From NCBI GenBank assembly GCA_030737835.1, contig CM060849.1:496001-560000 (forward strand): a stretch of 64,000 bases of DNA, in the 5' to 3' direction. Shown here one piece after another: positions 219-63,575 of this stretch; within the stretch, counting starts at the first letter, position 1, and each line of letters starts with the position of its first letter. The notes below the pieces were generated by a model. It had not been told where the DNA came from, made no database searches, and saw only the letters and a program-made list of their open reading frames with translations. A program made the translations under genes and the position numbers. Source of the DNA: Acorus gramineus (Eukaryota > Streptophyta > Magnoliopsida > Acorales > Acoraceae).

Positions 219-3189
219 TGTCACGCCCCAGGGCGGCCGTCCCCGGGACGCGGCAAGTGTATATATGATATCAGTGACAGGAAATCAATAATAAACCACA
301 AACAATCACTAAAATGACACACAGATAAAAGCAGGGCTGACATAATATATACACCGAGTGCGGAAGCTAAATGACTGAGTCTGTAGTCAAAAACATACTA
401 CAGACTCGATGCATAATCAAAAGTCCCGTGAGAGCCAACATGTCATAAATATACACAACAAAATCCAAATACAATCCAAACAAGTGCCCAAGCACAGAAC
501 ATATACGTACAACAGAAAGAAGGGTGCTGATGGCCTCAAAACTCGTGGGACGCGGCGCTGCCCTCTGCTGGTGTAGTCGCTCGGGAAGCTCCTCCCTCAG
601 AGATCACTGAAAAGGTAATATGCGAGGGGTGAGCCACACGCTCAGTGAATAGCACAACCCATGCATACAGTCATATTAACCACATTTAATCAATTCATAA
701 GCCACAAGTGGCATAATATCACCATCCGGGGTTCGTTCATCGCCGAACTCCATACCCTCACCCTCACCCTCAACAGGTGACCTAGGATGTTGGGACTTAG
801 CGGGTTGATAAACATCCATTCATAATCATGTGGGTCGTCGCATCGCCGGCCCACCATACCCTCACCCTCACCTCTCAACAGGTGACCCAGGCTCTTGGGA
901 CTGACTAGGCTGTTGGTTACCCTTGGTCCACCGATAGTCTCTCCTCACTCCGCGGTTGTTTGGCCACTCCCATGTTCAGCACAGTCCTTCCAAGTCAGGA
1001 GGCGCCTACTAGTGGGAGCCCCTGCACGGGACAACCTGTCTAACGCCGAGGTAGTCTCTACACGGATCCGACGAGGGGAACAGAACAGCCTATCCATCGC
1101 ATATGATCCAATCGGATCCGCTGACAGCACATCTCTAATACTCTAATGTCTCGAATTCCTCAGAATTCCACCAGCGCGCATAACCAGGATGCGGGGAAAC
1201 ATGCATTTAGTAATCATAATACAAGGGAAAATAGAGACCTTGGGAGGGTAACCTGAGGTCCCGATGTAGGACATCCGACAACCAAACGAGGAACACGGAG
1301 TACCCTAACCCGGGTCTCAATGTTAACCTCGCAAGGCCCCCCTTATATTCCCTAAGCATGCTATCTATTATTACAGTTCGCATTTAATTAAATAAACAAA
1401 ACTAATAGGACGCATGCACAGGTCGGGCTTTCCTAGCACGATAGCGAGGTGGCAGGATGCATGGCTCATGCACAATCCTAAGGGTGCAAGTCCCTATCAC
1501 ACAATCTAGGGTGGCATGCAATTCTACACACATATCATGCATACATGGATTACATCAAGCAGTTAATATTAACTATAAGCCCCAGGGGAGGACGGTACAC
1601 GCCCAAAGCATGTAGCGCCTCCCACACTGGGTTGGGTTGTCCCACTCACCGGGAATCGGGTCGACACGCGACCGTCCGTCGAGATCTGCAAGACAAGGTA
1701 TTAACTGGTTAGAATAAATCCACTGTTATCCCAAAAATACACAACACACGCAATTAAATACACAACATCCCCAAACAACATTCAACACCCCTTCCGGCAA
1801 CCACCCGCGGCCTCGGCAAGCACCCGCGGCCTCGGCAACCGCCCGCACGGCCTCGGTAACCACCCGGGTGCACCGCCGCGCCTCAGCCCGCGCACTCCGC
1901 GCACCGCCCGGGGCCCCGCGCGTCCACCGAGCCCAGCCGCGGCAGCCCGCACGCCGTGCGCACGCTCCTCGCCCCGCGCGCGCCCCGCGCGCACCTCCGC
2001 CGCTCCGCCGCGCCCCGCGCACGCCTCCGCGCGCGCCCCCGCACCCCGTGCGCTCCGCCCAGCCCTCGGCCAGCACCTCCGCCAGCCCCTCGCGCGTCCA
2101 GCACCTCGGCCAGCACCTCCGCGCGCCCTAGCACCTCGGCCAGCACCTCCTCGCGCGCGGCACAGCACCGTGGCCACCACATCCTCGCGCCCAGACCAGC
2201 GCGACCAGCACTTCGTGCCCGAGCTGCCCGAGGCCACCAGCCCGCCAGTCCGCCCTGCCAGCACCTCCAACCGGCACATCAGCACGACCCCGACTGCCAG
2301 CCCCCGACCCGCGCACTCCCGCGCGCCTGCCGCGCGCACGCACGCCCGCGCGCGCACGCGCGCATCCCTGCACGCGCCCAGCCTACGCGCGGCCTGGGCT
2401 GCTGCTGCCGCATGCCTGTTGCCCGGGACAGCGTCCCCACCTGCCGAGCACCTCCAACCACCCCTCCCACTGCCGCCGACCACTCCAACCACCCCCGACC
2501 ACCCTCCGACCACCCCCACTGCCGCCGACCACTCCCAAACCCCAAAACCCCCCCTAGCAATCATCTAGGCAAGAAAAACGGGGAAAAGAAGCTTACCGGA
2601 GGGGAGGAAGCGGCGATCGGGTGCTCTCCACGCACCGAAACCCTTCACAACGGACTTCTCACGCCCCGAGGAAGCTTTGCCTTCGAAATGGGCCAAAACC
2701 GAGGTCGGAAAAGGGAGGTCGGGGAGGCTAGGGTCGTCGAAAATCGATTTTGAAGACACCGGAGCGTAGATCGGGACCCGATCTACACTTCCCGTGCTTT
2801 GGGTTTTTGGTTTTGAAGGGTGGAAGGGGCTCGAACGGAAGAAAATCGGAGGAGGAGAGAGAGAGAGGCTAGTCGGGAAGATGATGAATAGTGTAGGCGT
2901 AAATTTTGATTTCTTTTATATATAGGGCGCAACTTAAAAACCCGGATACGCCCCGGAACTACGAAATTTTTGCAAACGATACCGGAATTCGATGAAATTT
3001 TCATGAGTGGCTCAAAATGGCACCAGGACACATAATATGCGGTTAGATTTTCAATCGGAGTCCTCTAACTCGGACAATAGCTAACAGTTCAAAATTATGC
3101 GGTTCCGATCGAAAAACCCTGAAAATTTTAAAACTGCCAAAAATGCTCCAATGATTGCCAATAGGCCAAAAAGTGACACATATATAACA
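219..3189 (-). mobile_element. Solo LTR, ~3-kb LTR family, copy 1
   Basis: A 2971-bp LTR begins TGTCACGCCCC and ends ATATAACA on the + strand, with canonical TG..CA ends. It is flanked by the 5-bp target duplication ATGTA (214-218 and 3190-3194). No internal retroelement sequence adjoins it, so it is a solo LTR left by LTR-LTR recombination. Transcriptional sense is taken as the minus strand: a TATA box reads CTATATATA at about 2917-2925, some 264 nt from the LTR start. Positions 1780-2560 are extremely GC- and CpG-rich. The long reading frames there look like composition artefacts. Family resemblance is to plant gypsy LTRs, possibly the Tekay/Del chromovirus group (inference). Confidence 0.85.
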
Positions 3190-3194
3190 ATGTA

Positions 3195-3517
3195 TGTTTG
3201 ATCTTAATTGAATGGTGGCTTTGGAATGCAGGCAACTTTTAAGATAATAATGAGAAGCCAATTATTTTTGAATGCATGAGAGATGTGGAGAGGAAGATTG
3301 TGAGGAACTCTTTCTTTGGCTTGATTTTTATTTTATATTTTTAATGATATATTTTAGATATTGAAATGTTTTTTTTATTTTTTGTTTTATTGTGTTTTTT
3401 TATTATATTAGGTGAAATGATTGGTCCATGAATTCAGAGATATAGACAATTTTTCTTCGATGCAAAATCGAGGTAAGATTTTATTTTTATTTATTTTTTA
3501 ATATATCGCTTGGGGTT
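3195..3517. other. AT-rich spacer between two solo LTRs
   Basis: About 320 bp of older sequence lies between the two LTR insertions and continues to the right of the second LTR. It contains AG/GT-bounded stretches, such as one ending AAATCGAG before GTAAGATTTT near 3473, that could be exon remnants carried in the surrounding Helitron. No product is recognised. Confidence 0.4.
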
Positions 3518-4576
3518 GCATATGTTATATATGTGTCACTTTTTAGCCTGCTGGTAACCGTTGGAGCGTTCTGGCAGTTTTTCGTTTTTTTTCAGTTTTC
3601 GATCGGAATCGCTAATTTTTGGACTGTTAGCTATCGTCCTGAGTTAGAGAACTCCGATTGAAAATCTAACTGCATAATTGGTGTCCTGGTGCCATTTTAG
3701 ACCTCTCACGAAAATTTCGTTGAATTCCGGCAACGTTTCCGAAATTTCACAGTTCCGGGGCGTATCTGGGTTTTTAAGTCGCACACTATATAAGAGTGGG
3801 ATCTAATTTCCGAGGTACTGTTCATCATCCCTACCAAATGAGTTTTCTCTCTCCCCTCTCTCTTTTTCTCACTTTTGACGCCCCTAGAGCCCTCAAAGCT
3901 TAAAACCTAAAGCATAGGAAGTGTAGATCGGGTCCCGATCTACACCCCGGTGCTTTCAAATTCGAATTCCGGCGAGATTTGCCCCTCCGTCCCCCCTCCT
4001 TCTTCCCTGATTTGAGCCATTTCGGTGGTGGAGGTAGATCCGGGCGTTAGAAGCCTTTTGAGGGAGGTTTCGGTGCGTGGAGAGCAACCGGACTTCGCTT
4101 CCTCCCCTTGGTAAGCCTCTTTTCCTCTCTTTTCTTGCATAGATGTATGCTAGGGGGATGGATTTGGGGTTGGGTGGCTGTGGGTGGCTGTGGGTGGCCG
4201 TCGGAGTGGTGGTCGGAGGCCATTGGTGGCCGGAGGTGGGTGGTAAGGGAGCTCGGGCTGGCAGGCAGGCAGCAGCACAGGCAGCAGCAGCAGGCACAGC
4301 AGCAGGCAGGGCCACTGGCAGGGCGCGCGCGTGCGTGCGCGCGGGCGTGCGCGCGGGTGGCGCTGGGCGCTGGGTGCTGGGCACTGGGCGCGGGCGTTGG
4401 GCGCTGGGTGCTGGGCGCTGGGCGCGGGTGCTGGGCGCTGGGCGCTGGCGGGCGCAGTCGGGCGCGCAGTCGCACGCGGGTGCGTGCGCGCGGGTGCGCG
4501 GGTGCGCGCGGAGTGGTCGCGCGGGTGCGCGCGGGTGCTGGCGCGAGCGGGGGTGTGTGCGGGAGTGCGCGCGCGT

Positions 4577-4690
4577 GGGCAGGGCGCCTGGGCACTGTGC
4601 CTGGGTGCTGGGCAGGGCGCCTGGGCACTGTGCCTGGGTGCTGGGCAGGGCGCCTGGGCACTGTGCCTGGGTGCTGGGCAGGGCGCCTGG
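4577..4690. repeat. 33-bp GC-rich minisatellite inside LTR copy 2
   Basis: A 33-bp unit starting GGGCAGGGCGCCTGGGCACT repeats from 4577, 4610, 4643 and 4676, giving about 3.4 near-identical copies. It lies in the GC-rich block between the first donor-like and first acceptor-like sites of the LTR. Confidence 0.85.
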
Positions 4691-5924
4691 GCATGCGCCT
4701 GGGCGCGGTGCTGGGGGCCAGTGCGCGCGGTGCTGGGGGACAGTGCGTGCGCGTGTTGGGGCGTGCGTGCAGTGCGCGCGGGGGCGCGCTGGGCTGGACG
4801 CGCGGTGCGCGCGGGCGCGCGCGAGCGTGCGCGTGCGTGCGGCGGTGCGTCGGGGCGCGCGGGCCGGCGTGCGACAGTGCGCCGGTGGTGTCCGGGTGTG
4901 CGGGCTGGGCTCGGCAGTGCGCCTTGGCGCGTGGGCCGAGGCTCGGCTGTGCGCCCGGGGCGGGTGGCCGTGCGTGCGGCTGCTCGGTGGGTTCGGGAGT
5001 GAGTCGGGATGCTCGGATACACGTGCGTACGGGCCGTATGTACGTTTATCCGAGTGTTGGGTATTTTAGATGTATTTTTGGGTATTTTATGCATTGTTCT
5101 CACCATATTGAATGTCTGTCTTGCAGATCTAGACGGACGGTCACGCGACGACCCGGACTTCCGGTGAGTGGGACAATCCAACCCAGTAGAGAGGCGTTAT
5201 ACGCACTTGGGCGTATACCGACCTCTCCTGGGGCACCATGGATAAATATTGACATATTGTAATGTGTATATCATGCGAGCATGATTAAATTGTAGAATGC
5301 ATGTTACCCTAGACTTTGCATGTTAGGGACTTGCACCCTTAGGGTTTGTGTATGAGCCATGCAGCATGTCCCCTGGTTCCATGTTAGGAAGCCCGCCCGA
5401 TGCATGTGCCCTACTAGTTTATTTATTAAATTAAATGCTAGTAAATGTTTAAATGCATGTTATAGTGAATATTATAGGGGAGGGGCCTTGCGAGGACAGC
5501 GGTGAGACCCGGGTTAGGGTACACCGTGTTCCTTGTTTGGTTGTCGGGGTGTCCTATAACGGGAACTCACGCTGCCCTCCCGAGTTTCTTTCCCCAACGA
5601 TATTCCACCTTGTTATAACCTTATGCATGTTCCCCGCATCGTAGTTATGCGCCCTGGTGGGTTCTGAGGAATTCAGAACATTAGTGTTGTTATGATGTGT
5701 TGTCTGCGGATCCGAGTGGATCATATGCGATGGATAGGCTGTTCTGTTCCCTTCGTTGGATCCTTTAGAGACTACCTCAGCGTTAGACAGGTTGTCCCGT
5801 GCAGGGGCTCCCAGTAGTAGGCGCCTCCTGATTTGGTGAAGGACTGTGCTGAACGTGGGAGTGGCCAAACGACCTACGGAGTGAGGAGAGACTATCGGTG
5901 GACCAAGGGTGACCAACAGCCTAG

Positions 5925-6270
5925 TCAGTCCCAAGAGCCTATGTCACCCGTTGTAGGGTGAGGGTGAGGGTGTAGTGGGTTGGCGATGAACGACCCGCTG
6001 GATTTGTCTATGGATGATTGTCAGTCCCAATATCCTATGTCACTCCTGTTGAGGGGTGAGGGTGAGGGTGTAGTAGGTTGGCGATAGCGACCTGCTGGTT
6101 TGGTGTAGTTAGTCCCAATATCCTTGGTCACCCCTTGAGGGGTGAGGGTGAGGGTGTAGCGGGTTGGCGAAAGCGACCCGTTGGTTTTGTGTTGATTAGT
6201 CCCAACATCCTTGGTCACCCATTGAGGGTGAGGGTGAGGGTGTAGTGGGTTGGCGGTAGCGACCCACTAG
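5925..6270. repeat. Tandem ~90-bp units with GAGGGT runs in LTR copy 2
   Basis: Four units each contain AGTCCCAA, a GGTCAC/TGTCAC box, a short run of GAGGGT hexamers and GGGTTGGCG. The other two LTR copies have only about two such units (about 715-905 on the minus strand and 62876-63055), so unit number varies within the family. Confidence 0.75.
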
Positions 6271-7888
6271 TTGAGGAATTGTTGTTATTGGTGGCTATGG
6301 TAAATGTGGTTGTGGATGTTAAGGTTTATCTGGTTGTGGTCAATATTATCTGTGATGCATGGGTTGTGCCGTTCACTGAGCGTGTGGCTCACCCCTCGCA
6401 CAATATTTTTCTACAGTGTCATCTGAGTCGGATCCAGAGGAGGAGCTCCCCGAGGGACTTCATCAGTAGCGGAGTAGCGCCACGTCCCGCGAGTTGTAGA
6501 GACTATCAGCATCCCTTGTACCAGTATGTATTATTTTCCGTGCTTGGGCACGCGTTTGGTTGTATTTGGATGTCTTTGTATATATATTGGCTCTCACAGG
6601 ACATGTGATTATGTATGGAGTCTGTAGTGTGTTTTGATTACAGATTCAGTCTTAGTTATCCGCATTTGGTGTATATATCCTGTCAGCCTTGCTTTTGTTG
6701 TCTGTGTGTCATTTTGGCTGCTTGTGTATGATATTATTGACCTCCTGTGTAGATTCTGATATTATATATGCACTTGCCGCGTCCCGGGGACGCCTGGGGC
6801 GTGACAGCATAAAGATGAAAATGTTCCATTCCTTTTATTGGATATTAAAATTCTATATTGGTTTATTTTGATTAGGGTGTTGTTTGCTCTTGTTTGATGT
6901 GATGCGATATAGGTTTTGTATGATAAAAAATTGTTTCATGGAATTTGTTGATTAAAATACGATCTTGTCGTTTTATGACCGAGTTAGAGTTTAGGTAATC
7001 TTAGAGTTTCATATTTAATTGTACTTAAGAAAAAATAAGTTGTAATGTGGATTACAAATAAGTTGTAGTGTGGATTAGTTAGATTAGTTGAACACATGGG
7101 ATATTAATTAATTATTAATTTAATTATTCATTTTTTTGTCAATTATTTTTTTATAACATTTGTTTGTTATATTTTATATATTTTTGATGTGTTGTTATAA
7201 TATAAAATATCTATGAATGCATAATTTATTCATATTTCATATTTTCAACATAATTAATGACTTCTTTATCAAACCCCATTAATTAAAAGAATCTAATAAT
7301 CATTTTTATTTTTATCTATAGTTTTCATCAGTTTTAAATATTATTTTACATAAATCATTTTTCATCTTATTATGTTTCTCAATTATATCTCATATAATCA
7401 CAATTTTAATTTAATTAATTAATTTATTTTTATTTTTTTGCTTCAAGTTTTAAGTGTTCTTTTGAATTGGTTATTTAATTGTATTGGGTTTTTGAATTGG
7501 TTTATGTGATTGCATTTCAATAAGAATTTGATAAACTTTCAAATGTAGTATTTTGTAGGTCTATTTTTTTTTTCACATTTAAGTCACCAAGGTAGTTTCC
7601 ATTAAGAGTTTAAATATATTCAGAAGATTTATATATGAGAATTAATTAATGAGTCAATTTTGAAGAAATATGATATTAGTTTGATATTGTGATTGTTAGT
7701 TAAAGTTGATTATAGACATAAAATAATGCAATTATCAATTTATATTTGTCAAATATTTTCTACTAATATGATACAAATATAAATAATTTTGATTACATTC
7801 TCTCCACATGAAATTTTTGTCAAACATGTTTTATTAAATAAAAAATTATAAATAAAAATAAATATACTAATTTTATTAAAATATATCT

Positions 7889-9345: not shown

Positions 9346-9831
9346 TATATAGACAATATAATTACACAAAAATATTTACTTTTCCTTATTTCAAAAAAAA
9401 TATTTCATCATTATGATTATAATTATATGTAAAATAAATTGTGAACAAATCCAATGTCACGCTTAATATGTATCTTACCTATGGTTCGTTTCTAAATTTA
9501 TTAAAATGTCTATATCTATTCTATACAACTTATATATATACTACAGATCTTGGAAATACTTTCATTTGACACTTTTATCATAATTGATGTAAAATTTTAT
9601 ATAGACAATATAATTACACAAAAATATTTACTTTTCCTTATTTCAAAAAAAATATTTCATCATTATGATTATAATTAAATGTAAAATAAATTGTGAACAA
9701 ATCCAATGTCACGCTTAATATGTATCTTACCTATGGTTCATTTCTAAATTTATTAAAATGTCTATATCTATTCTATACAACTTATATATATACTACAGAT
9801 CTTGGAAATACTTTCATTTGACACTTTTATC
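9346..9831. repeat. Direct tandem duplication, ~234-bp units, 252-bp period
   Basis: Unit 1 (about 9346-9579) and unit 2 (about 9598-9831) both start TATAGACAATATAATTACAC and end GACACTTTTATC. Only a couple of differences are visible, so the duplication is recent compared with the surrounding decayed sequence. Confidence 0.85.
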
Positions 9832-22700: not shown

Positions 22701-25700
22701 GGTATTATATGAAGGTGATTGTGTTTGCTCGGGGGAGGTGGTGTTTAGTGTTTTTTTTTTTTTGGGAGATATCTCCCAATGTGATTTGTTGATTTTTTTT
22801 TTTGAAGATAATATAGGAGTATCTTATTACAATAAACCTCTGAAATTAGGAGACAAGGGATCTCCGTATAACATAAAAAAATAAGAAGAAAAATACAAGA
22901 TTAATTCAAAACTACAGGAGTATAATCCTCTATCCCAAGCATCACCCAATAAAGAATTAGGTAAAGGCTCCTCCAAGATGAATTTACCCAATTTGTAAGC
23001 ATCAATGTGATCGTGGCCCAAGTATTTTTCCAGTAAATTATTTTGTGTTTAAAGACTCCTTCGTTGCGCATTAACCAAATGAACGAACAAATAGTATGAG
23101 GAATCAACCGTTGGAACTTAGCTTGATTGCTTCGATCCCGGAACCACTTCCACGTGTCTTCCACGTCTGTGAATGAACAAGATGACCCTAGGGCTTCCCC
23201 CACTTTCTTCCAGATTTGGGTACTAAAGGAACATGTAAAGAATAGATGTTGTCTACATTCTTCCTCAACACACAAACCACAGAGTGTATCTCCATCGTTG
23301 ACCACTTAGCTTGATTCATTTTGGTGAGGATTTTGTTGATGGATAGCAACCACATAAAGCCTTTGATCTTCAGAGGTGATAGCGCACCCCATATCAGGCG
23401 CTCAATTTGGGCCGAGAGAAGGTGAGGAAGCGGTCCTTTGTTGGGCCACTGATACAAAGATCGGGGACAACTTCCAACAGATTGAGCCTTCCTCTTCTAA
23501 ATTAAGAGATATTTTTTGAAGGCAGTCGAGAAGAGATAAAAGTTCTTCCATCTCCTCACCACTTAGGTCCCTTTGGAGTCTTGGCAAAACAATGGAATTG
23601 GCTTCACAAGCAAACCAATCACAAATGAATTCTTCCTCATCTAGCGCCATGCGGAATAGAGCAGGGAATAAATGTTCCAACGAGGAACCATTAAGCCATT
23701 CATCCTTCCAAAAGCGAATATAATTTGGTAGACATCGGACTTTTCCCTCAAAAGATTATGCTTTTAATCTATTTCCCAATAATGAGAGTTCATAATTTTG
23801 GTAGCTTGTTCCATGTTAACATATACATAGTCCAGGGAGACCCCTTATCCTCATTCACCAATATAAAAATTCCCATCAAAGCTGTGACGTTGGATAATTC
23901 AATGATCATTTTGGCTGAAAATCTCATGGAGATGATTGTTCATTTGACAAGCTTCCTCTTGGCTTTCATTCATCAAGGACTCAAGGGATTGTCATCCATC
24001 TTTATGAGATTGTACGTTCTAGAAGTCTGGTGTGATGGTTTGGTATGCATAAGTGTGAGGATTTCTGTAGCTGAATGCCACTGCTGGACTGAGCAGATTC
24101 TTAATTTTTCATTTCTACCTATGACACTGATGTTCAACTTAACTACTAATATCAAATTTGACAGTGCAACATACATGGATTTAGAAGAAATAAATGGAAT
24201 AATTTTTGTATAAAGTAATGGAGGCCGAAAGGTCCCTTATATAGTTACAAGATGTACAAACCCTAAAACAGAAAAAGACCAAAATACCCATGACAAAAAT
24301 TCGAGTCGGGGGCGCTGCCCCTGAACCCCCGTACACCCACAATCGGTGATTCCCCACATGGGCCTCCGAGAACTATATAAGGGACCTTTCGGCCCGGGAC
24401 ACGACCCGAATCCGCCGCCGCCAGCCTCCCTCCGCAGCTGCCGGACGCCCTCTGTTGCCGCCGGCCGCCCTCAGCTGCCGCCGTACGCCGCCTTCCGCCG
24501 CCGGCCGACCTCCGCCGCCGCCCATGGGGGGCGTTGCCCCCCAACCCCCGACCTCCGCCGCCGAACTAGGGTTTTTTAATTTCTAGCTCTGCGGCCCATG
24601 GGGGGCGTTGCCCCCCAACCCCCGGGCCTCCGGGAATAGGCCCAACAACAGACCTATCCAATAACTCCAATAGATTTCATGATTACATAAAATGTTTAAG
24701 GAGCTCATGAGCAACTCCATATGCCGCAGCATTGTTGGTGACCACCTGGTCAATGCACTCTTATCCTACTCCCTCTATTATTTTATCTAGCAATTCGAAT
24801 ATATATTGTGTTGGGTTAATATATTTTGTATAGTTCAGGTATATAGTCATCTAATAATTTAAAATAAATTCTTCCAGTTGGACAAGTAATTAAAGGTTAA
24901 TTAATTTCTTTACAATTTATATCCAACCATCTAACATTATTGTGCAATCATAAATCTTCCGTGCTTCTCCATGTTGTCTTGAAAGTTTATTGGTTTCTTG
25001 ATATCTTCATGATTTTGGGGCTTTGAGGCCTCCAAATCTTTTTAACATTTCTGGTTAAGTGGTGTTTAGTTAAAACTCAGTTGACATGGGAAATGCGACC
25101 AGGGTAGGAGTGAACAGAGAGTTAAAACTAATCAGTATTTGTTAACAAGAAAATACTTATAAATAAGTATACTAGCACAATAATTATAACCAGTAGTTGA
25201 TTGCTATTATCAATAAGAAATAGGTAACTATTTACGTAATACACTGCAAAAAAAAAAAAAAAGCTGTATGAAAAGATTAGAGAACCACCAACCTCATTTA
25301 ACAAATTACTTTGAGATTGGGAGAACGAGACAGGATATAATGATTGCTTTAAATAATGTAGTCTTCAATAATTTGATTTTTTATAATGTCTTGAAAGAGT
25401 ATCTAATGGTGGGTCCTAGAATCACAAGGGACCTTTTCGGAGGAGTAATTGATAGATATTGAATGACTTCTGGGCAGAAGTTGTCCATATCAATAAAAGA
25501 ACCAATGACCGATCTGCCCCCCAACCCCCGGGCCTCTGGGAATAGGCCCAACAACAGGCCTATCCAATAACTCCAATACCCCCCCTCAAGTTGGAGCGAA
25601 GATATCAATCAAGCCCAACTTGATCAAGCTAGAACGAAGAACAGAGGGACCAACGGACTTGGTGAACATATCAGCAAGTTGCTCGTTGGAAGAGACAAAT

Positions 25701-28700
25701 GCTGTGTCAATGGCGCCTGACTGTACTTTCTCTCGAAGAAAGTGAATGTCAACCTCAATGTGTTTGGTCCGCTCATGAAGAACTGAGTCTGAGGCAAGCA
25801 TAATGGCAGATCGGTTATCACAAAACAAAGTAGATGAACCAGCATAATCTGCATCAGTGTAACAAGAAATGATAGGCTGAGCACTAATAGCATAGAATAA
25901 GCCAAGACCTGGGCATGACTTCAAGTATCGAAGAATCCGGTAAACAGCATCTAGGTGAGAAGTCCGTGGGGCATGCATGAATTGACTCACCACGCTGACA
26001 GCAAAAGTCAAATCAGGTCTAGTATTCGTCAAGTAAATCAAACGTCCCACTAGACGCTGATACAAAGAAGGATCTGGTAGAAGGTCGCCTGATTCAACAT
26101 GAAGGCGATGGTTCTGGTCCATAGGAGAAGTGGCAGGGCGACATCCAAGCATACCGGTATCCTCAAGAAGGTCAAGAGTGTATTTTCGCTGGGAGAGTGA
26201 AATACCATGGCGTGAGCGAGCAATCTCAATCCCCAAAAAATACCGAAGAGGACCTAAATCCTTCACATCAAACGCATGTCCAAGCTCAGTCTTCACTCTA
26301 ACAATGTAATCAGCATCATCTCCTGTGATAATGATATCATCCACGTAAACTAGAACAATGGTGCACCGTCCATTACTTCGACGAATGAAGCAAGTATGAT
26401 CAGCATGACAACGAGTGAATCCAAGAGAGAGAATGATTACACTGAATCTTTGAAACCATGCTCTCGGTGATTGCTTCAGTCCATATAGAGACTTGAGAAG
26501 AAGACAGACCTTCCCGGAATACTCCCCCTGAAGACGAAAACCAGGCGGAGGATCCATATAAATTTTCTCTGTCAAGTCGCCATGAAGAAAAGCATTCTTC
26601 ACATCCATCTGATGAAGAGGCCAGTTGTGACAAGCAGCAAGAGAGATAAGAAGCCGAACGGTAGTCAGCTTGGCAACAGGAGCAAATGTAGCATGGAAAT
26701 CCTTCCCTGGAGTCTGAGTGAAACCTTTTGCAACAAGGCGTGCCTTATAGCGCTCAACAGCCCCATCAGCCTTGTATTTTACTGTGAAAACCCATCGACA
26801 ACCAACAGTTCTCTCCCCTGGTGGAAGATCAACTAACGCCCACGTATGATTTTTCTGCAAGGCATCCATCTCTGCGGTCATAGCGGCGGTCCAAAGAGGA
26901 TCCTGTAATGCCTCAATTACAGTACGAGGAATACGGATAGACGATGTAGCAGCTAGGTAAGCTCTGTAGGAATCTGAAAGTCCCTGATAAGAAACAAACT
27001 GGGCAAGAGGATGAGCAGTGACACAACTCCGACGACCTTTGCGAAGAGCAATAGGTACATCAGAGTCAGATGGAGGCAAATCAGAAACAGAATATGGAGT
27101 GATCAAGGAAGAGGATATACCTGAGTCCGAGGAGGATGTCGACAAGTGAGCAGGAGAGAGAGGTGGTCGAGGTCTACGAGTGTATACAATAAGAGGAGAC
27201 TGTGGTGGTGATGACTGTGGATGGAACGACTGTGGTGGTGGCGATCGTGGCTGTGGCAATGGCAATGGCTGAAAAAATGATGCCGGTCGAACTGGTGAAG
27301 AAGAATGTTGCAGAACCGTGTCAGAAAAATATGGCACATCCTCAAAAAATGTAACATCAAGGGAATGGAACAATCTCCGAGAAATAGGATCATAGCATCT
27401 ATATCCTTTGGACATGGTGGAATAACCAAGGAAAACACAACGTATAGACTTATCATCAAGCTTGGTGCGTGAAGGTCCCCTATCCTGAACAAAACAAGTA
27501 CACCCGAAGACTCGAGGAGTGATGGGGAAAAGAGTACGACCAGGATACAAAACATGGAAGGGAACTTGACCTCCTAAAGTACGACTGGGAGTCCGATTAA
27601 TCAAAAAAGCAGCAGTGAGGACTGTCATACTCCAATAGAACTTTGGAACACTCATTCCTCGAAGGAGACAACGAACCACATTCATGAGATGATTCTTGCG
27701 TTCGGCCACCCCATTCTGCTCAGGTGTATATGGACAAGTCAACTGTTGAAGGATTCCCAACTCATTCAGATGAGACCGAAAAGAATCCGAGACATACTCC
27801 CCCCATTATCAGACCTGATACTCTTGACAGTAATGTTAAACTGTGTTTTAATCATGCGTAAAAAATTAATACACTGAGAGGATACCTCAGACCGAGATTT
27901 AAGAAGATAAACCCAAGTATATCTAGAAAAATCATCAATGAATGTCAAGTAATATCTATGACCACCAAAAGCAGTAACAGGAGAGGGACCCCACACATCA
28001 GAATGAATCAAATCAAACAACCCAGAAGCTTTATTCATACGAGAAATATAAGTAGTACGGGTATGTTTAGAAAGCTCACACACAGCACATTGAAATTTAT
28101 GAGTCTTACATGAAGAGCGAAAAGTAGGAAATAAAGAACATAGATGCTGAAAATTGGCATGTCCTAAACGAGCATGCCATAAATCTAGAGATTGTAAAGA
28201 AAAACTATGCGAATGATCAGTGGACAAAATGGAAGCATGGGCCGTGGTGGGTGGTTCTCCGAAGACGTAAAGGCCATCTCTCTCATACCCCTTGCCAAAA
28301 ATCCTCCGTGTACTCAGGTCCTGAAAAACGCAATGATCAGGGTAAAAATCACTGAACAGTTCAAAGCCTTAGTCAATTGGCTAACAGAAAGAAGGTTAAG
28401 AGCAAGATTGGGAACATGTAACACAGAGTGTAATGATAAAGAGGAAGATAAAGGAACGGTACCCTTACTGATGACAGGTGTAAGTGAGCCATCAGCAAGG
28501 CGTACCTCTCTGTGTATAGAAGGTGATGTCAAGGGAACAAACAATCGAGACTCACCAGACATGTGTTCTGTAGCGCCTGAATCAATGACCCAAGTAGGAG
28601 ACCCTGATTGGTTAACATGGTAGGCGGAGGGGATACCTGAGGTAGAGGAAGAAGCAGCAGAGGATGTTGGACCAGCATGAGAGACATGAGAGGCAAGACT

Positions 28701-31700
28701 CTCCCGAACCATAGCATCAATATGGTTCTGAATATTACGCATATCAAAGGACCCAGATGGAGCAGAGGGGGCATCACCCGGAACCGAGGCATCAGCAACA
28801 GCAGCACGAGGGGCAGACGAAGGAGCTCCAACATTGTGAGATCGCATCAAGTGTGGGTACAGAAGAAAACATCTGACTTTTTCATGACCTGTTTTTCCAC
28901 AGTGGCCACAAGTCACAATATTGCCGCGTCCACGTCCACGACCACGACCACGACCGCGACCACTATCCCCGTGGCCGCGAGAGTCATATCCAGAAGTGGC
29001 CGCCAATGCCATCTGATCACCGAGGGTTCTAGTGGTCGCTGAGGAAGAGATCTGACGGCGATGCTCATCACCCTCAATAATAGCAAATGCCTCGAATAGA
29101 GAAGGAAGTGGTGTGGTATTCAAGATCTGAACACGAAGAGATTCGAACTCTGATCGAAGGCCCATAAGAAACGCATATGTCTGTTGGCGTTGTAGTCGGC
29201 CAACCACAATCGTGGCAGCCTCCTTAGGCAACTCCGAGAGAGGCTCATAGTGGGCAAGTTCCTCCCAACGAGCCTGCAGAAATCCAAAATAATCGGTAAC
29301 TGATTGGGTACCTTGGGTGGCCTGGGCAATATCCTTGTACAACTCATAGATCCGTGAGTCATTCCTGGCATGACCATAGGTCTTCTTCAACGCAGCCCAT
29401 AGAGAGTCGACCGTATCATGATACATGAACATATTGTAGATCCGGGTCTCCATGGAGTTGAAAAGCCAACCTAGAACCGTACAGTTGTTGATCTCCCACT
29501 GATTGAAAGTCGTATCGGTTTCTACTGGCTTGTTAATGGTGCCAAGAAGAAGGCCTGACATACCTCGACTACCCAAATATAATCGAACAGAACGCGACCA
29601 GGACGGATAATTTCGTCCATCAAGAAGCACGGTGGTAATCCGTTGAGCATGAGAATTGTGCCCTAACGGAATGGTGGTGTCCTTGATCTCCACACCCGAC
29701 AGTGGCGTGGGGTCTTTCGGCGTTTTGTCCATTGCGAACCTCAAATCTCGACCCGAGAGAGGAAAAGATAATAGAGATCACCACGATCCGTGATGGAAAA
29801 AAAAAATCGTGAAACCCTAGGGTTTCTTTGTGGCTCTGATACCAAGAAGAAATAAATGGAATAATTTTTATATAATGTAATGGAGGCCTAAAGGTCCCTT
29901 ATATAGTTTCAAGATGTACAAACCCTAAAACATAAAAAGACCAAAATACCTATGACAAAAATTCGAGTCGGGGGCGCTGCCCCCGAACCCCCGTACGCCC
30001 ACAATCGGCGATTCCCCACATGGGCCTCCGAGAACTATATAAGGGACCTTTCGGCCCGGGACACGACCCGAATCCGCCGCCGCCAGCCTCCCTCCGCAGC
30101 TGCCGGACGCCCTCAGCTGCCGCCGTACGCCGCCGGCCGACCTCCGCCGCCGCCCATGGGGGGCGTTGCCCCCCAACCCCCGACCTCCGCCGCCGAACTA
30201 GGGTTTTTTAATTTCTAGCTCTGCGGCCCATGGGGGGCGTTGCCCCCCAACCCCCGGGCCTCCGGGAATAGGCCCAACAACAGGCCTATCCAATAACTCC
30301 AATAGATTTCATGATTACATAAAATGTTTAAGGAGCTCATGAGCAACTCCATATGCCGCAGCATTGTTGGTGACCACCTGGTCAATGCACTCTTATCCTA
30401 CTCCCTCTATTATTTTATCTAGCAATTCGAATATATATTGTGTTGGGTTAATATATTTTGTATAGTTCAGGTATATAGTCATCTAATAATTTAAAATAAA
30501 TTCTTCCAGTTGGACAAGTAATTAAAGGTTAATTAATTTCTTTACAATTTATATCCAACCATCTAACATTATTGTGCAATCATAAATCTTCCGTGCTTCT
30601 CCATGTTGTCTTGAAAGTTTATTGGTTTCTTGATATCTTCATGATTTTGGGGCTTTGAGGCCTCCAAATCTTTTTAACATTTCTGGTTAAGTGGTGTTTA
30701 GTTAAAACTCAGTTGACATGGGAAATGCGACCAGGGTAGGAGTGAACAGAGAGTTAAAACTAATCAGTATTTGTTAACAAGAAAATACTTATAAATAAGT
30801 ATACTAGCACAATAATTATAACCAGTAGTTGATTGCTATTATCAATAAGAAATAGGTAACTATTTACGTAATACACTGCAAAAAAAAAAAAAAAGCTGTA
30901 TGAAAAGATTAGAGAACCACCAACCTCATTTAACAAATTACTTTGAGATTGGGAGAACGAGACAGGATATAATGATTGCTTTAAATAATGTAGTCTTCAA
31001 TAATTTGATTTTTTATAATGTCTTGAAAGAGTATCTAATGGTGGGTCCTAGAATCACAAGGGACCTTTTCGGAGGAGTAATTGATAGATATTGAATGACT
31101 TCTGGGCAGAAGTTGTCCATATCAATAAAAGAACCAATGATAAGGTGTGTTGTAAAGGAAGGAAATGCTTGGAATGTCAGTTATTTCTTTAGCTTTACAT
31201 AATCTGTAGGATTTGATCTTCATGAAAAGCTCAAGCTTTATGTGGATGTTGTATGTAGATAAGTGTAAGACTTCAAAAAGAACATAGCAAGGCAGGATCA
31301 AGATGGTAACTATGCTGTGTCTGATGAAGAAGTGGAGCTACGACTTATTTATTCGTGTATTGGAAAAGGCATATAGCCAAGAGTATTGGAAAAAGCATAT
31401 AGAATTGAATGGGCGTAAGATTGTAGAATTTGCATGTCCTGGAAATGCGGAAGTGTTTTTGGAGGCTGAAAAGAAAGGAGACATGAGATTTAAAAGAGAG
31501 TTATTTAGCTTATTTGTCATGTGGTTTGTTGGGGTCATTAGCTGGCAATAAATGATAAATTTTCTAATGAAAGCATATTATCTGAAAACTCGTGATAGCA
31601 TCCTGACAGATTTAGAGGCTAGGGGCAAAGTGGAAAACTAATGTGGGTTCAGTTACCATGTTATTCATTCATTTATTTATTTATTTTGGTGGGGGGGTGG

Positions 31701-43575: not shown

Positions 43576-44390
43576 GGTGTTTTAGGTTGTGATCATCAGC
43601 AGTATGGATTTGCAGGAGTTCTAAGTTATAATCTTTGATCAACTCTGAAAATAGCATTATATGCCTCATTTATTGGGTGATGCCATTTGCAAATGAGCAT
43701 TGTTACATGCAATCTGCCGCAACAGTCCCGGAAACAGTTCATATACACCTTCATAGTCATCTTTTATATATTAGTTATATAAGTTCATATACACTTTCAG
43801 AGTCATCTTTTATATATGGGTTTTGTTACACTTAGTTACAAAGTCTGACCATATCTCAAACTCCACGTCAGCAGTCTGACGTGGAATTTTTGAATTTTTA
43901 ATGTCACGTCGGATCTCCAAAAAAGCAGTCGAAAATTTTCCCCCAAAAGTTTTCGTTCATTTTTTTGGGTCCGTAACTCTGTTGTCCCTCCTTTTTTAAT
44001 CCATTAAAAATATTTCATTTATTGTTTCATTCTCTCTCTCAAAGTCTGCGTCAACCACCATAGACCAGCAATAGCAACTCCATGAAAAAGCAGTAAATAT
44101 TCCTCGTTTACAGTTATTGGACCCAAAAAAGGTATACACTTTGTTTGCAGAAGATTTCAACATTTATTCCTCTGTTTCGAATATTTTATCATTGTTCGTA
44201 ACAGCTTTTTCGTCGAAGGTTGTCTTGTTGTACAGTTTTAGAAGATGACAAATTCAAGTCTGTTCACCATTGTTCAATCATAGACAACTTACTTTTTTGC
44301 TTTCTTTCTTTAATGCATATATACATATGGTTATTATGTGTATACCAACTTAAATATGGCATGTAAATGCAGTTGGTTGTTATAGACCAA
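43268..44390. other. Intergenic region with (TTA)n microsatellite
   Basis: Contains the 3' UTR of the SAP30BP-like gene, a (TTA)n run at 43546-43575, two near-repeats around 43736 and 43785 (AGTTCATATACACxTTCA), and the leader of the following FRS-like gene. An acceptor-like TGCAG at 44367-44371 precedes the FRS reading frame. Confidence 0.5.
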
Positions 44391-45775
44391 ATGAAGACGA
44401 ATGATTCAGAACAAATTGGAGAGAGCGTTGATGCTGAACACCGAGCTGAAGGAAACCGCGATGAAGAAGCTGAAGACATTAGACATTACGAAGCAAATGA
44501 AGAGTTGATGTCTGGCATGGAGTTTGATAGTATTGAGGAAGCATTTTCTCGATACAAGGCATTTGCTTTTCAATGTAGTTTTGGTGTCATGAGGAGTGGA
44601 AGAAGATTCACTCTTGACGGTGACTTGAAGGCAATTATTTTTGCATGTTCGAAAGAGGGAAAACTGAGAAAGAAGAAGGATGAAACCACCACAATCACGG
44701 GCGTCTCTCAAGCCCGGTATAAACCCACTTGCAAAACCAATTGCAAAGCTAGGATGCAAATCAGAACATTCAGTGATGGAAAATGGGTATTAGATCTTCT
44801 TGTGCTTGAACACAATCATGAAGTGGACCCAAAACTCTCACGATTTCACATATGTCATCGCGCACTGACTGCACACGTCATGAAACAATTGGCTATTAAT
44901 GATGCTGCCGGACTTCCTCCATGCAAGACATTCGACGCACTAGCATACGAAGGGGGAGGTTACAACAATCTTCCATACACTGAACAAGACTGTTGGAATT
45001 ATCTTCAAAAAGTGAGACGCCTACAGCTTGGAGAGGGATACATTGAAGCGCTACTGCAGTATTTCAGCAAGCAACATGAGTTGAATGCCTGTTTCTTTTA
45101 TAGGATCGATTTGGATGAAGAGGGTAAGCTGAAAAATGTATTTTGGGCAGATGCACGTTGTCGAGCTGCGTATCAATATTTCAGAAATGTTGTGTTATTT
45201 GCCACAACATATCTAACTAACCGGTACGCAATGCCATTTGCACCCTTCATAGGAGTGAACCATCATGGGCAGTGAATTTTGCTAGGTTGTGGGTTGCTTG
45301 CTAATGAGACGATAGAAACTTATATATGGTTATTCAAGTCTTGGTTAGCTTCTATGGGAAACCTTCCGCCAGCCGGAATAATAACAGATCAATGTAAGTG
45401 CCATCAAAGAAGTGTTTCCCATGTCTAGGCATCGCCTTTGTCTCTGGCACATCTTGAAAAATGTTTCAGGAAAGCTGTGTAAGGTGAAGTTATTTTAAAT
45501 TTTGTAATTAGCTACTTGTTTTAACCACGTATAGTATTTAATATGTTTACGCCAGTACATGCAGATTTTAAACTAGTATATGCATAATGTAATCGAGTAT
45601 ATACAGATATGGTTTCCTGTTTACATGTAGATAAAAGGTTGAATTTACAAAAGCACGTGACCTATTAATGTTGTACATGCATTAATTGTACATACCATTC
45701 AGGTTGAACGGTACAAAGAATTTAAAGATAATCTTGGCAGTCTCGTCTTCGATTGTTTAACTGTTAGACAAGCTC
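44391..45775 (+). pseudogene. FAR1/FRS-family (MULE-derived) gene, broken and truncated
   Basis: The frame from ATG 44391 encodes an acidic N-terminus, then a FAR1 DNA-binding domain (GMEFDSIEEAFSRYKAFAFQ; zinc-site residues in FACSKEG, TCKTNCKA and EHNHE), then the start of the MULE transposase-like domain (LTNRYAMPFAPFIGVNHHGQ). The usual FDTTY motif reads FATTY, so the first catalytic-type Asp is Ala. An in-frame TGA at about 45273 interrupts the frame. Homology continues in the same frame (ILLGCGLLANETIETYIWLF) and shifts by an extra base near 45397 before RHRLCLWHILKN. After an intron-like gap a short exon (VERYKEFKDNLGSLVFDCLT) ends near 45775, where Tat-type sequence begins. Family members are light-signalling transcription factors or Mutator transposases. 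This copy is not functional as a full protein. Confidence 0.8.
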
Positions 45776-47825
45776 CTATAATGAGGTTATGCCTCCCACA
45801 TCCTATGGCCCGAGACGGATGGGAAAGAGGGATTCCTAACCACCCCTCCCAGAAACCTTAACCAAGATTTTTAGGGTAATGATGGACATAAATAGTATCT
45901 CCCTTCCTGCTGCTAGGCCCTCACTCCCCGGGGCAAGCACCACACGTTACTGTCAGTACCATCAATAGCATGGTAACACTGTAGAACAATGCATTGTCTT
46001 TCGGGACTTTGTTTATGATTTAAATGATGATAGGCGCCTTGATTGGGCCATGATTAAAAGCCACCTGAGCCAGGGCAATCCCTAAGCAAACAAGCCACTT
46101 GACATATTCACTGACCCTATGCCAGATCACGACCGAGTCTCCACTTCCGGAGCATGCACTATTAATATGATCAGAAGGGAGAGACATCCGTCACCGGAGC
46201 GGAGCAGCTCGGAAGACACCACAGATGGCAATCTATCCGAAGAATCTGAGGAGGAAGGGCAAGACGAGCCTTTCCTGCTGAACCTCGATTAGCACGACCT
46301 CGCCATACTATATGGCGAGGAAGAACAAGTACTCCCTGCCCTGCCTGAAGTCATCAGCATAGAGTCCGATGAAAGCAGACTAGACAACCCGGGAGAAGAA
46401 GAAGAAGAGGAACCATTCGAAGAGGTTCCGGAGGGGGCAAGCGAAGGATCCGAGCAAGGGAAGTGTACTTCAGATGATCTGCATCCGGACGACAACGGGT
46501 CATCCAAAAGCACTGATACGGTCGACGGCCCCTGCTGTCCAATGACCATCTCCTTCACTGACAAGGACCTCCCCGACCCAAGACTGCGGGTATACCCCCT
46601 CCATGTTCGCGGACGACTCCAGGCCATCTCGCTAAACAACATCTTCATTGACCCAGGATCGGGGATGAATATGATGACTTGCTCCACCTACAAGGAAATG
46701 CCTAGACGAGGTTGCCCTGTCGTCCAACCAGTACACTCCTCCATCCAAGCTTTCAACCATTATGGAAAGACCATCTGCGGCCCCGGATTATTCGAGCTAG
46801 CCATCGGCCCCCTGGTTTGCGAGATGGAGTGCTTCGTGGTCGACATTGACACGAGATACCCTCTGATGCTAGGGCGTCCATGGCTCGATAGTATTCAAGC
46901 CATCTGCTCTCCCTGACACCAATGCCTCTGTTTACCCTTTCAAGGTCATGTACTGACCATTTGGGGAGAGGCACGCCTCCAATATGAAAATGAAGACAAC
47001 TAGGTACTACACAACATGTTCGCACTAACCTTGCACCCAGGTACCAAACATGGAGGTGACAGCCCACCTGGATCCCCCTACAACAATCAATACCCCTCGG
47101 AGGAGATGGCCAGGACCATGAACTCGGTAAACAACCACGTAGAGCCCCATCCGATCGCCTTCCTCCCCCATGAAGTCGCTAGAGCCAGAGCACGCTCTGC
47201 ACCCCTCGCAATCACTGCCAAGCTCAGAGGGAGAGAGTTCAAGCATATTCTTGTTGACACGGGAGCAAAAACCAACGTTCTTACATATTCCGCTTACCAA
47301 AAGCTTGAAGGCAGAATCCCCAGACTGGAGCAGTCGAACGAGTTCATTTACGCCTTCGACAGCATGCGCAATAACATACGCGGATTGGTCACGCTCTCGC
47401 TAAAGATTGGCCCAGTCTCCACCATCGTCAATTGCATGGTAATGGACATCCAATCACCCCACCCCCTACTTGTCGGAAGAACGTGGCTCGACAGCATCGA
47501 AGCCGTGTCATCTACCAGACACCAATGCCTTCGCTTCCCATACCATGGAGAGGTGATGTCCATCTAGGGAGAAGCACGCTTTGACGGGGCACAAGTCTGA
47601 AATTGGAGCATCTATGCAATGCGCATCCGGCCAGAGGTGCTCGCATGCTGGAAACCAGACTCCACCGATGGAGACTTGCTACAACAAAGCAGGCCCCTGA
47701 AGAGGCTGAGGGAGGAAGAATCCGGTAATAGGGAACCACCACCGGATATAAGTCGGTCTCCAAAGGCCAGCCGTTTTGAAAAAGCGGCGCAGGTACATGA
47801 ACCTGGGACTGATCCACCCAAGTAA

Positions 47826-60448: not shown

Positions 60449-63400
60449 TGTTATATATGTGTCACTTTTTGGCCTGCTGGTAACCATTGGAGCATTTTAG
60501 CAGTTTTTGAAATTTTTGCATTTTTCGATCGGAACCGCATAATTTTGGACTGTTAGCTATCGTCTGAGTTAGAGGACTCCGATTGAAAATCTAACTACAT
60601 ATTATGTGTCCTGGTGCCATTTTAAGCCACTCATGAAAATTTCATCGAATTCCGGCAACGTTTTCAAAATTTCACAGTTCCGGGGCGTATCTGGGTTTTT
60701 AAGTCGCACACTATAAATAAGTGAGATCTAATTTCCGAGTTACTATTCATCATCCCTACCAAACCTTCCCCTCTCTCCTCTTCTCCATTTTTCTCACTTT
60801 TGAGGCCCCTAGACCCCTCAAAATCAAAAACCCAAAACCTAGGAAGTGTAGATCGGGTCCCGATCTACACCCCGGTACCTTCAAATCCCGTTTCCGGCGA
60901 CTCTAGCCTCTCCGACCTCCCCTCTTTCTCCTCTGTTTTGGCCCGTTTCGAGGGCTGTGGTAGATCGGAGCGTAGGAGGGCCGTTGAGAAGGGTTTCGGT
61001 GCGCGGAGAGCACCCGGACTTCGCTTCCTCTCCTTGGTAAGGTCCTTTTCTTCACTTTTCTTGCATAGATGTATGCTAGGAGTGTGGATCTGTGTATGAG
61101 GGGTGGTCGGCGGCTGTGGGTGGCTGTCGGAGGTGGTTGGGGGTGGTCGGCGGCCGTGGGATGGGTGGTTGGAGGTGCTCGGCAGGCAGGGCCATTGTCT
61201 CGGACAGGGCAGCAGTGCAGGCAGCACCGGCACAGCAGGCAGAGCTGCTGGCGGGGCGCGTGCGCGCGTGCGCGCGGGCGTACGCGCGGGCACGTGCTCG
61301 GGTGGTGCTGGGCGTGGGCTTGCTGGCTGTGCTGGGTGTGCTGGGCAAGGACGTTGGGGCAGTGCTGGCGCGGCAGGCGGAGCGGCAGACTGGGCGCGCG
61401 AGCGCGTGCGCGCGAACGTGTGCGCGCGGGCGTGCGCTCGGTGCGAGGGGCTGGTCGAACAGCTGCGCGTGGGTCTGGTGCAAGGGCTGGTCGAACGGCT
61501 GGTGCGGGGAGAGGTGTGCGAGCGGTGTGCGCGCGGGTCTGGTCGCGCGGGCCTGTGCGCGAGGAGCTGGTTGCGCGGATCTGTGCGCAGGGAGCTGGTC
61601 GCGCGGGTGCTAGGCGTGCGGGCAGGGGTGGTGCGTGCGCGAGGCGCGGTGGGGCAGTGAGGTGTGCGCGAGGTGGTGGCCGAGGGCAGTGCGCGTGGGA
61701 GGGCGTGCAGGGTGCGCGGGAGGGCGCGGCGAGGCAGTGAGGTGCGCGCGAGGCGCGGCGAGGCGGCGGTGGTGCGCGCGAGGCGCGGCGAGGTGGCGGA
61801 GGTGCGCGCGAGGCGCGGCGAGGTGGTGGAGGTGCGCGCGGGGTGCGTGCGGGGTGAGGCGCGGCGCGGGGGGCGTGCGGGGTGCTCGCGGGCCGGCGCA
61901 AGGCGTGCGGGGTGTGCGGGCTGAAGCGCGGCAGTGCACCCGGGCGGTCGGGTGGCCGTGCGGGTGGTTGCCGGCCGTGCGGGTGGTTGCCGGGGGTTAT
62001 GGGTGTTTGCTTTGGGGTTTTGGGGTATTCATTTGTGTATTTAATGATATTTGTGGATTCATACTTACCAAGTAATACCCTGTCTTGCAGATCTCGACGG
62101 ACGGTCGCGCGTCGACCCGAGTTCCGGTGAGTGGGACAACCCAACCCAGTTTGGGAGGCGCTACATGCTTTGGGCGTGTACCGTCCTCCCCTGGGGCACA
62201 TAGTTAGTATTAACTGCTTTGATATAATCCATGTAAGCATGATGTGTGTGTGCAGAATGCATGCCACCCTAGACTTGTATGTTAGGGACTTGCACCCTTA
62301 GGATGTTGTGCATGAGCCGTGTATCATGTCACCCCGTTATCATGCTAGGAAAGCCCTGACCTGAGTATGCGTCCCATTAGTTTGATTTATTTATTTAAAT
62401 GCAAACTGCGATATATATATTAGCATGCCTTGGGAATATAGGGGGCCTTGCGAGGTTAACATTGAGACCCGGGTTAGGGTACTTCGTGTTCCTTGTTTGG
62501 TTGTCTGATGTCCTACATCGGGACCTCAGGTTACCCTCCCAAGGTCTCTTTTCCCCTTTATGCATTATTCATATTCCCCGCATCCTGGCTATGCGCGCTG
62601 GTGGAATTCAGAGGAATTCAGGACATTAGAGTTGTAGAGATGTGCTGTCAGCGGATCCGAGTGGATCATATGCGATGGATGGGCTGTTCTGTTTTCCTCC
62701 GTTGGATCCGTGTAGAGACTACCCCGGCGTTAGAAAGGTTGTCCCGTGCAGGGGCTTCCATCAGTAGGCGCCTCCTGCTTTGGTAGAAGGACTGCGCCGA
62801 ACATGGAAGTGGCCAAACGACCTACGGAGTGGGGAGAGACTATCGGTGGACCGAGGGTGACCAACAGCCTAGTCAGTCCCAAGAGCCTAGGTCACCTGTT
62901 GAGAGGTGAGGGTGAGGGTATGGTGGGCCGGCGATGCGACGACCCACAGGATTGTGAATGGATGATGATCCACCCATTAAGTCCCAATATCCTTGGTCAC
63001 CTGTGAGGGTGAGGGTGAGGGTGAGGGTATGGCGGTTCGGCGATGTGACGAACCCCCGGATTTGTGATATTTATGCCAGTTTTGAGGCTAGTGGTTTGAT
63101 TAAATGTGGTTAATATGAACTGTATGCATGGGTTGTGCTATTCACTGAGCGTGTGGCTCACCCCTCGCATATTATCTTTTTCAGTGATCTCTGAGGGAGG
63201 AGCTTCCCGAGCGACTACACCAGTAGAGGAGTAGCGCCGCGTCCCACGAGTTTTGAGGCCATCAGCACCCTTCTTTCTGTTGTATGTATATATTCTGTGC
63301 TTGGGCACCTAGTTTGGATTATGTATGGATTTTTGTTGTGTATATATGGACATGTTGGCTCTCACAGGACGTATGATTATGTATCGAGTCTGTAGTATGT

Positions 63401-63575
63401 TTTGACTACAGACTCAGTCTTTTAGCTTCCGCATTTGGTGTATATATTATGTCAGCCCTACTTTTATCTGTGTTGTCATTTTTAGTTGTTGGTTGTGGTA
63501 TATTATTGAACTCTTGTTACTGATATCATATATACACTTGCCGCGTTCCGGGGACGGCCGCCCTGGGGCGTGACA
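60449..63575 (+). mobile_element. Solo LTR, ~3-kb LTR family, copy 3
   Basis: A 3127-bp LTR starts TGTTATATATGTGTCAC and ends GGGGCGTGACA. It inserted into the right TIR of a MITE, duplicating CGGG (60445-60448 and 63576-63579), or ACGGG if the terminal A is counted as shared. A TATA box CTATAAATAA lies at 60711-60720, 262 nt in. Donor-like GTAAGG is at 61036, acceptor CTTGCAG ends at 62090, a 36-nt exon-like block ends at 62126 before GTGAGTGGG, and an acceptor TTTTTCAG ends at 63184. The CpG-rich middle differs in detail from the other copies. Confidence 0.85.
61741..61840. repeat. 30-bp GC-rich minisatellite inside LTR copy 3
   Basis: The unit GGTGCGCGCGAGGCGCGGCG plus about ten variable bases starts at 61741, 61771, 61801 and 61831. 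It lies in the same interval of the LTR as the 33-bp repeat of copy 2 but has an unrelated unit. Confidence 0.85.

Follow-up and report, generated by a model that had tools for sequence, protein, structure and literature searches.

An exact flank copy beside a Copia retrotransposon of Acorus gramineus: assembly join or rearrangement

How does a retrotransposon come to stand beside an exact second copy of its own flanking DNA? This question is raised by a Copia element of Acorus gramineus that lies within a window of 64,000 nucleotides, by which we mean the whole stretch analysed here (contig CM060849.1 of assembly GCA_030737835.1, positions 496,001 to 560,000 of the forward strand; coordinates below count from its first letter). 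A preceding account drawn from the letters alone, the sequence-only reading, had explained the locus as an exchange between an allele reduced to a solo long terminal repeat (LTR) and a full-length allele, and had itself named an assembly artefact as the alternative. That alternative now seems the likelier of the two. With somewhat better than even confidence, we believe that the tandem arrangement is a false duplication made in assembly. It is favoured over a real rearrangement, to which, all of its forms taken jointly, we give a tentative weight that falls short of even; what remains goes to other causes. These weights were set by judgement and not by calculation.

Order of the parts and identity of the flank copies

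From left to right, the locus begins on the side of the left flank (A) with the target-site duplication GATTT (24178-24182; AAATC in element orientation), to which no strand applies. It is followed by the left complete LTR, 490 bp on the minus strand with TA...CT termini in element orientation and an apparently mosaic make-up (24183-24672), and then by the first copy of the right flank (B), 836 bp that start with GATTT (24673-24677) and extend over 24673-25508. Six unmatched bases, CCGATC, form the seam (25509-25514). Beyond the seam lie three parts on the minus strand: a stub of the 3' LTR, comprising the first 64 bp of U3 and placed beside the polypurine tract (25515-25578), the Copia interior with polypurine tract, reverse transcriptase, integrase and gag (25579-29844), and the right complete LTR of 460 bp, which is the 5' LTR (29845-30304). 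The second copy of flank B (30305-31140), again 836 bp including GATTT, continues into unduplicated DNA; flank copies and seam are unstranded. The order of parts and the coordinates given in the sequence-only reading hold, while its count of GATTT plus 836 bp was wrong, since the 836 bp already include the GATTT.

The two flank copies had been called identical by eye, and the match is indeed complete (836 of 836 sites), extending through a run of 15 A that each contains; the upper 95% bound on their divergence is 0.36%. When the adjoining 177 bp of LTR are added to the 836 bp of flank, a single difference is found in 1,013 bp, a level that two haplotypes could show. Such near-identical neighbouring copies are one mark of a false duplication. 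In a BLAST comparison of the window with itself (E up to 1e-10), just two pairs exceed 100 bp while reaching at least 95% identity, and the flank and LTR pair is one of them, hence not due to chance. The other pair is a tandem repeat in AT-rich DNA at 9346-9831, with a period of 252 bp, 1.9 copies and 99% matches; this repeat apart, the self-comparison gave no further false-duplication candidate of that length and identity in the window.

A false duplication would have been assembled from two pieces. The first would have read A flank, GATTT, LTR, GATTT and B flank, and could have come either from a genuine solo-LTR haplotype or from an assembly path that went in through the 3' LTR and out through the 5' LTR. 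The second would have had its start inside the 3' LTR, where a GC hairpin lies, and would have covered the interior, the 5' LTR and again the B flank. These pieces would then have been abutted rather than overlaid, with a scrap of 6-7 bases of Illumina adapter left at the start of the second. The placing of two end-sharing contigs in succession is described as a duplicated-overlapping-contig error (PMC2864568), and for three older vertebrate assemblies the falsely duplicated share of the sequence is put at 4 to 16% (PMC9516828). If the arrangement is such an artefact, the plant may still carry a solo-LTR allele, and only the side-by-side order would be false. An LTR element beside an exact copy of its own flank could then mimic allele exchange through a contig join of haplotype or repeat-confused pieces, and an adapter scrap could pass for end-joining filler.

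The seam: adapter end or templated filler

The left edge of the seam ends ...ACCAATGA and the right edge begins TGCCCCCC. Only the six bases CCGATC between them are unmatched, because the TG that follows is LTR sequence; the insert given in the sequence-only reading has to be shortened to these six. With the T that follows, they spell CCGATCT, the same 7 bases that stand at the end of CTCTTCCGATCT, which is the Illumina universal adapter in reverse complement. Adapter reverse complements are described as clustering at contig beginnings in microbial assemblies (PMC11536531, which also supplied the adapter sequence), and CCGATCT at the piece starting with the stub stands in that same contig-start orientation. 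The chance that a random 6-mer reads CCGATC is about 1.4e-4 at roughly the base composition of the window, and partial short adapters are reported to escape the simple mode of Trimmomatic (PMC4103590). From the structure, the flank identity and the oriented adapter match, all of them observed, we infer that the seam would be an assembly join.

A second match bears on the same six bases. The 11-mer ACCGATCTGCC lies inverted at 25805-25815 (minus strand), about 290 bp from the seam, and spans the insert together with 1 matching base on its left and 4 on its right, so that it is a possible template for filler. The statistics of such matches were computed with the self-match of the seam excluded: of the 4096 possible 6-mers, 12 would have matched as well within 320 bp and 20 within 500 bp (weighted probability 0.006); at limits of 1 kb and 4 kb the count rises to 38 (0.011) and 123 (0.038). 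A search for a seam template at distances 100 and 300 gave no match. Either the adapter match or the inverted 11-mer must be a coincidence, and the seam alone does not say which.

The inverted 11-mer, with its 1 + 4 matching flanking bases, would suit a real rearrangement in cis of a plain full-length element, a reading that we consider unlikely and for which the adapter match would have to be the coincidence. In such an event replication or break repair, having set out in the A flank, would have reached the 3' LTR and there changed template to the homologous 5' LTR; after copying 836 bp of B flank it would have come back to the 3' LTR, at the hairpin, through end joining that left a short filler. 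In a two-step form, a tandem duplication would have been followed by an LTR-LTR deletion of one interior. Neither form requires a solo-LTR allele. Maize break-repair junctions are known to contain fillers of 1-131 bp, often of nearby origin (PMC2686159), which favours a cis event as well as any other that ends in filler. Set against this, about 85% of perfectly matching flank inserts in PMC5068794 had their priming site no more than 10 bp from the break, and snap-back copying made up a minor class. With priming mostly that close, an inverted template at a distance of about 290 bp is atypical. The organism of that study was presumably C. elegans.

The position of the break also bears on the cis reading. 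The seam-side end of the stub falls at the loop of TGGGGGGC-GTT-GCCCCCCA, an 8-bp GC hairpin, as a switch point at such a structure would have it. Against this, the hairpin region folds no better than shuffles of the same composition (z -1.16, with 26 of 200 shuffles as good). The event would, moreover, have to be very recent, given the upper bound on flank divergence. The hairpin TGGGGGGCGTTGCCCCCCA itself is found twice in each complete LTR, at 24525-24543 and 24599-24617 on the left and at 30157-30175 and 30231-30249 on the right. The more specific proposal, that a single template-switching repair event used the LTRs as its first switch point and the U3 GC hairpin as its second, and so made a look-alike solo LTR beside a full-length element, is in our judgement quite improbable. 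Were it genuine, the locus would cleanly record a template switch from one LTR of an element to the other, and would mean that what looks like a solo LTR can form while the full-length copy is kept. As to the earlier proposal that the insert records end joining, the inverted 11-mer keeps a templated form of it possible, and the equality of the insert with an adapter end in contig-start orientation stands against it.

Several observations weigh against a false duplication. False duplications are typically marked by gaps between the copies (PMC9516828), and there is not one N at the seam or elsewhere in the 64 kb. Stretches of 500 bp ranging from 18% to 80% GC were assembled free of gaps, which hints at long reads, with which an Illumina scrap would be less expected. 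The adapter match was spotted post hoc, and other adapters would also have counted. In the window CCGATCT is commoner than expected (12 matches, with 4.85 expected). Of the adapter no more than the 7-base end is present, and the longer adapter AGATCGGAAGAGC, allowed up to 3 mismatches, gave 14 matches in the window where 11.56 were expected, none of them at the seam. The palindrome mode of Trimmomatic is described as removing even one adapter base (PMC4103590). The probability of the inverted 11-mer match is about 0.006 within 500 bp. Finally, the left LTR carries at 24652 a private A that is absent from both the stub and the right LTR, so that it is not simply collapsed from these two.

Make-up of the left LTR

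A MAFFT alignment of the two complete LTRs shows 13 differences over 460 aligned sites and one 30-bp indel. The same pair within the joined 1,326-bp BLAST match shows 10 mismatches and 2 gaps, the gaps being placed differently; the earlier figure of about 10 sites and two indels thus agrees with BLAST and departs from MAFFT, and both alignments are fair. The Kimura two-parameter distance of 0.029 corresponds to about 1.1 to 2.1 million years under the two substitution rates tried, which come from general background knowledge. The differences are unevenly spread: 12 fall within the 283 aligned sites up to 24495, on the U5 side, and 1 within the 177 sites after it (24496-24672), on the U3 side (Fisher p 0.02). 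An alternative split, into 165 sites with 9 differences and 295 sites with 4, gives p 0.017; the two split points were picked after inspection of the data. The sequence-only reading was right that the left LTR is no recent copy of the whole right LTR, the U5 side having diverged.

The stub is the sole piece of the U3 of the 3' LTR that is certain to adjoin the interior. At one site it carries T where both complete LTRs have C, so the left LTR follows the 5' LTR there. This diagnostic site and the clustering of differences suggest that the left LTR is a mosaic, of 3' LTR origin on its U5 side and 5' LTR origin on its U3 side. Three origins would each be expected to give such a mosaic: a solo LTR, a template jump from LTR to LTR, and an assembler passing from one LTR to the other. 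The mosaic look, with a U3 end resembling the 5' LTR, also counts in favour of the cis rearrangement.

The left LTR also has a plain mark of a solo LTR, as a single LTR with identical GATTT on each side (24178-24182 and 24673-24677). Exchange between a solo-LTR and a full-length allele, in which an illegitimate join would have linked B flank to 3' LTR, is nevertheless a doubtful explanation in our view. It accounts for the GATTT that borders the left LTR at either end and recurs past the right one, and for a left LTR that looks mosaic as a solo LTR would, with the private A at 24652 fitting a separate lineage; the filler evidence, that is, the inverted 11-mer and the maize fillers, applies to it as it does to the cis reading. 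The cost is that a solo LTR must have formed, both alleles must have persisted, and a non-homologous exchange must have taken place near allelic positions, between two alleles that the 836/836 identity makes nearly identical there. From the solo-LTR history first proposed, the make-up of the left LTR and the double GATTT do fit recombination between 3' and 5' LTR. Exchange of alleles in the plant would be only one way to this order: abutted contigs of haplotype or repeat-confused origin, a template switch in cis, or duplication with loss of an interior give it too.

The Copia element, its surroundings and known systems

The element is a Copia retrotransposon of plant type; within the sequence itself, the element type and the FAR1 gene described below suggest a plant source. 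Three open frames lie on the minus strand, in element order: 28314-29777 with gag and Pol_BBD domains, 27766-28368 with gag_pre-integrs and the integrase core, and 25586-27805 with SH3_retrovirus and the RVT_2 reverse transcriptase. The Pfam matches along them are, in the same order, to PF14244 (5.7e-09), PF13976 (2e-10), PF00665 (1.6e-09) and PF07727 (1.2e-76). The reading frame is broken twice, at the overlaps of these frames (27766-27805 and 28314-28368). Immediately after the 5' LTR, at the position of the primer-binding site, stands TGGTATCAGAGCC, which we take to pair with the initiator Met tRNA, and the polypurine run TTGAGGGGGGG precedes the 3' LTR stub in element orientation. The element thus has what defines Ty1/Copia: gag, integrase and RVT_2 with integrase before reverse transcriptase, together with LTRs, primer-binding site, polypurine tract and AAATC/GATTT, the 3' LTR here being the 64-bp stub only. 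LTR ends of the form TA...CT are a known non-canonical Copia type. In a viral contig collection the LTR start pattern had 0 matches, and the 4 stretches that matched the pattern of the reverse transcriptase frame included no relative by tblastn (0/4); in a genome contig collection, relatives were 0 of 27.

The strand of these genes bears on one further explanation, capture of the flank during retrotransposition by a read-through transcript or a template switch in reverse transcription. The extra copy does adjoin an LTR, as capture would predict. Because the element genes lie on the minus strand, B is upstream of the 5' LTR, and read-through would take the A flank; a new insertion would, furthermore, bring its own target-site duplication, yet GATTT borders both LTRs. 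Capture was rejected on these grounds, and we leave it next to no weight.

Elsewhere in the window, a foldback of 6.6 kb occupies 219-6806, where 219-3189 matches 6806-3523 inverted, in pieces, at 72-79%, with 500-bp stretches of up to 80% GC. One arm alone is found again at 60449-63575 (up to 82%), and three outer ends share TGTCACGCCCCAGG. Palindromes of the form AGATCGGG(T/A)CCCGATCT at 2768-2784, 3925-3941 and 60850-60866, which lie within this repeat, give 6 of the 12 CCGATCT matches in the window. An open frame at 44367-45275 has a FAR1 DNA-binding domain and a weak match, below the cut-off, to the start of a MULE transposase domain; another at 47004-47567 has an aspartyl protease domain (PF13650, 3.5e-05) and is perhaps a relic of another retroelement.

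Three known systems resemble the locus. A solo LTR formed by LTR-LTR recombination within an element (PMC2686159) likewise has the same GATTT on each side and a mosaic look; here, in contrast, the rest of the element persists in cis past the second flank copy. Filler-DNA end joining in plants (PMC2686159) and templated insertion by polymerase theta (PMC5068794) likewise leave a short insert with matching sequence nearby, whereas the template here is inverted and about 290 bp off, as against about 10 bp, and the insert fits an Illumina adapter end equally well. False duplications and duplicated overlapping contigs (PMC2864568, PMC9516828) likewise present near-identical ends in tandem that mimic a very recent duplication; the present locus differs from them in having no run of Ns at the join.

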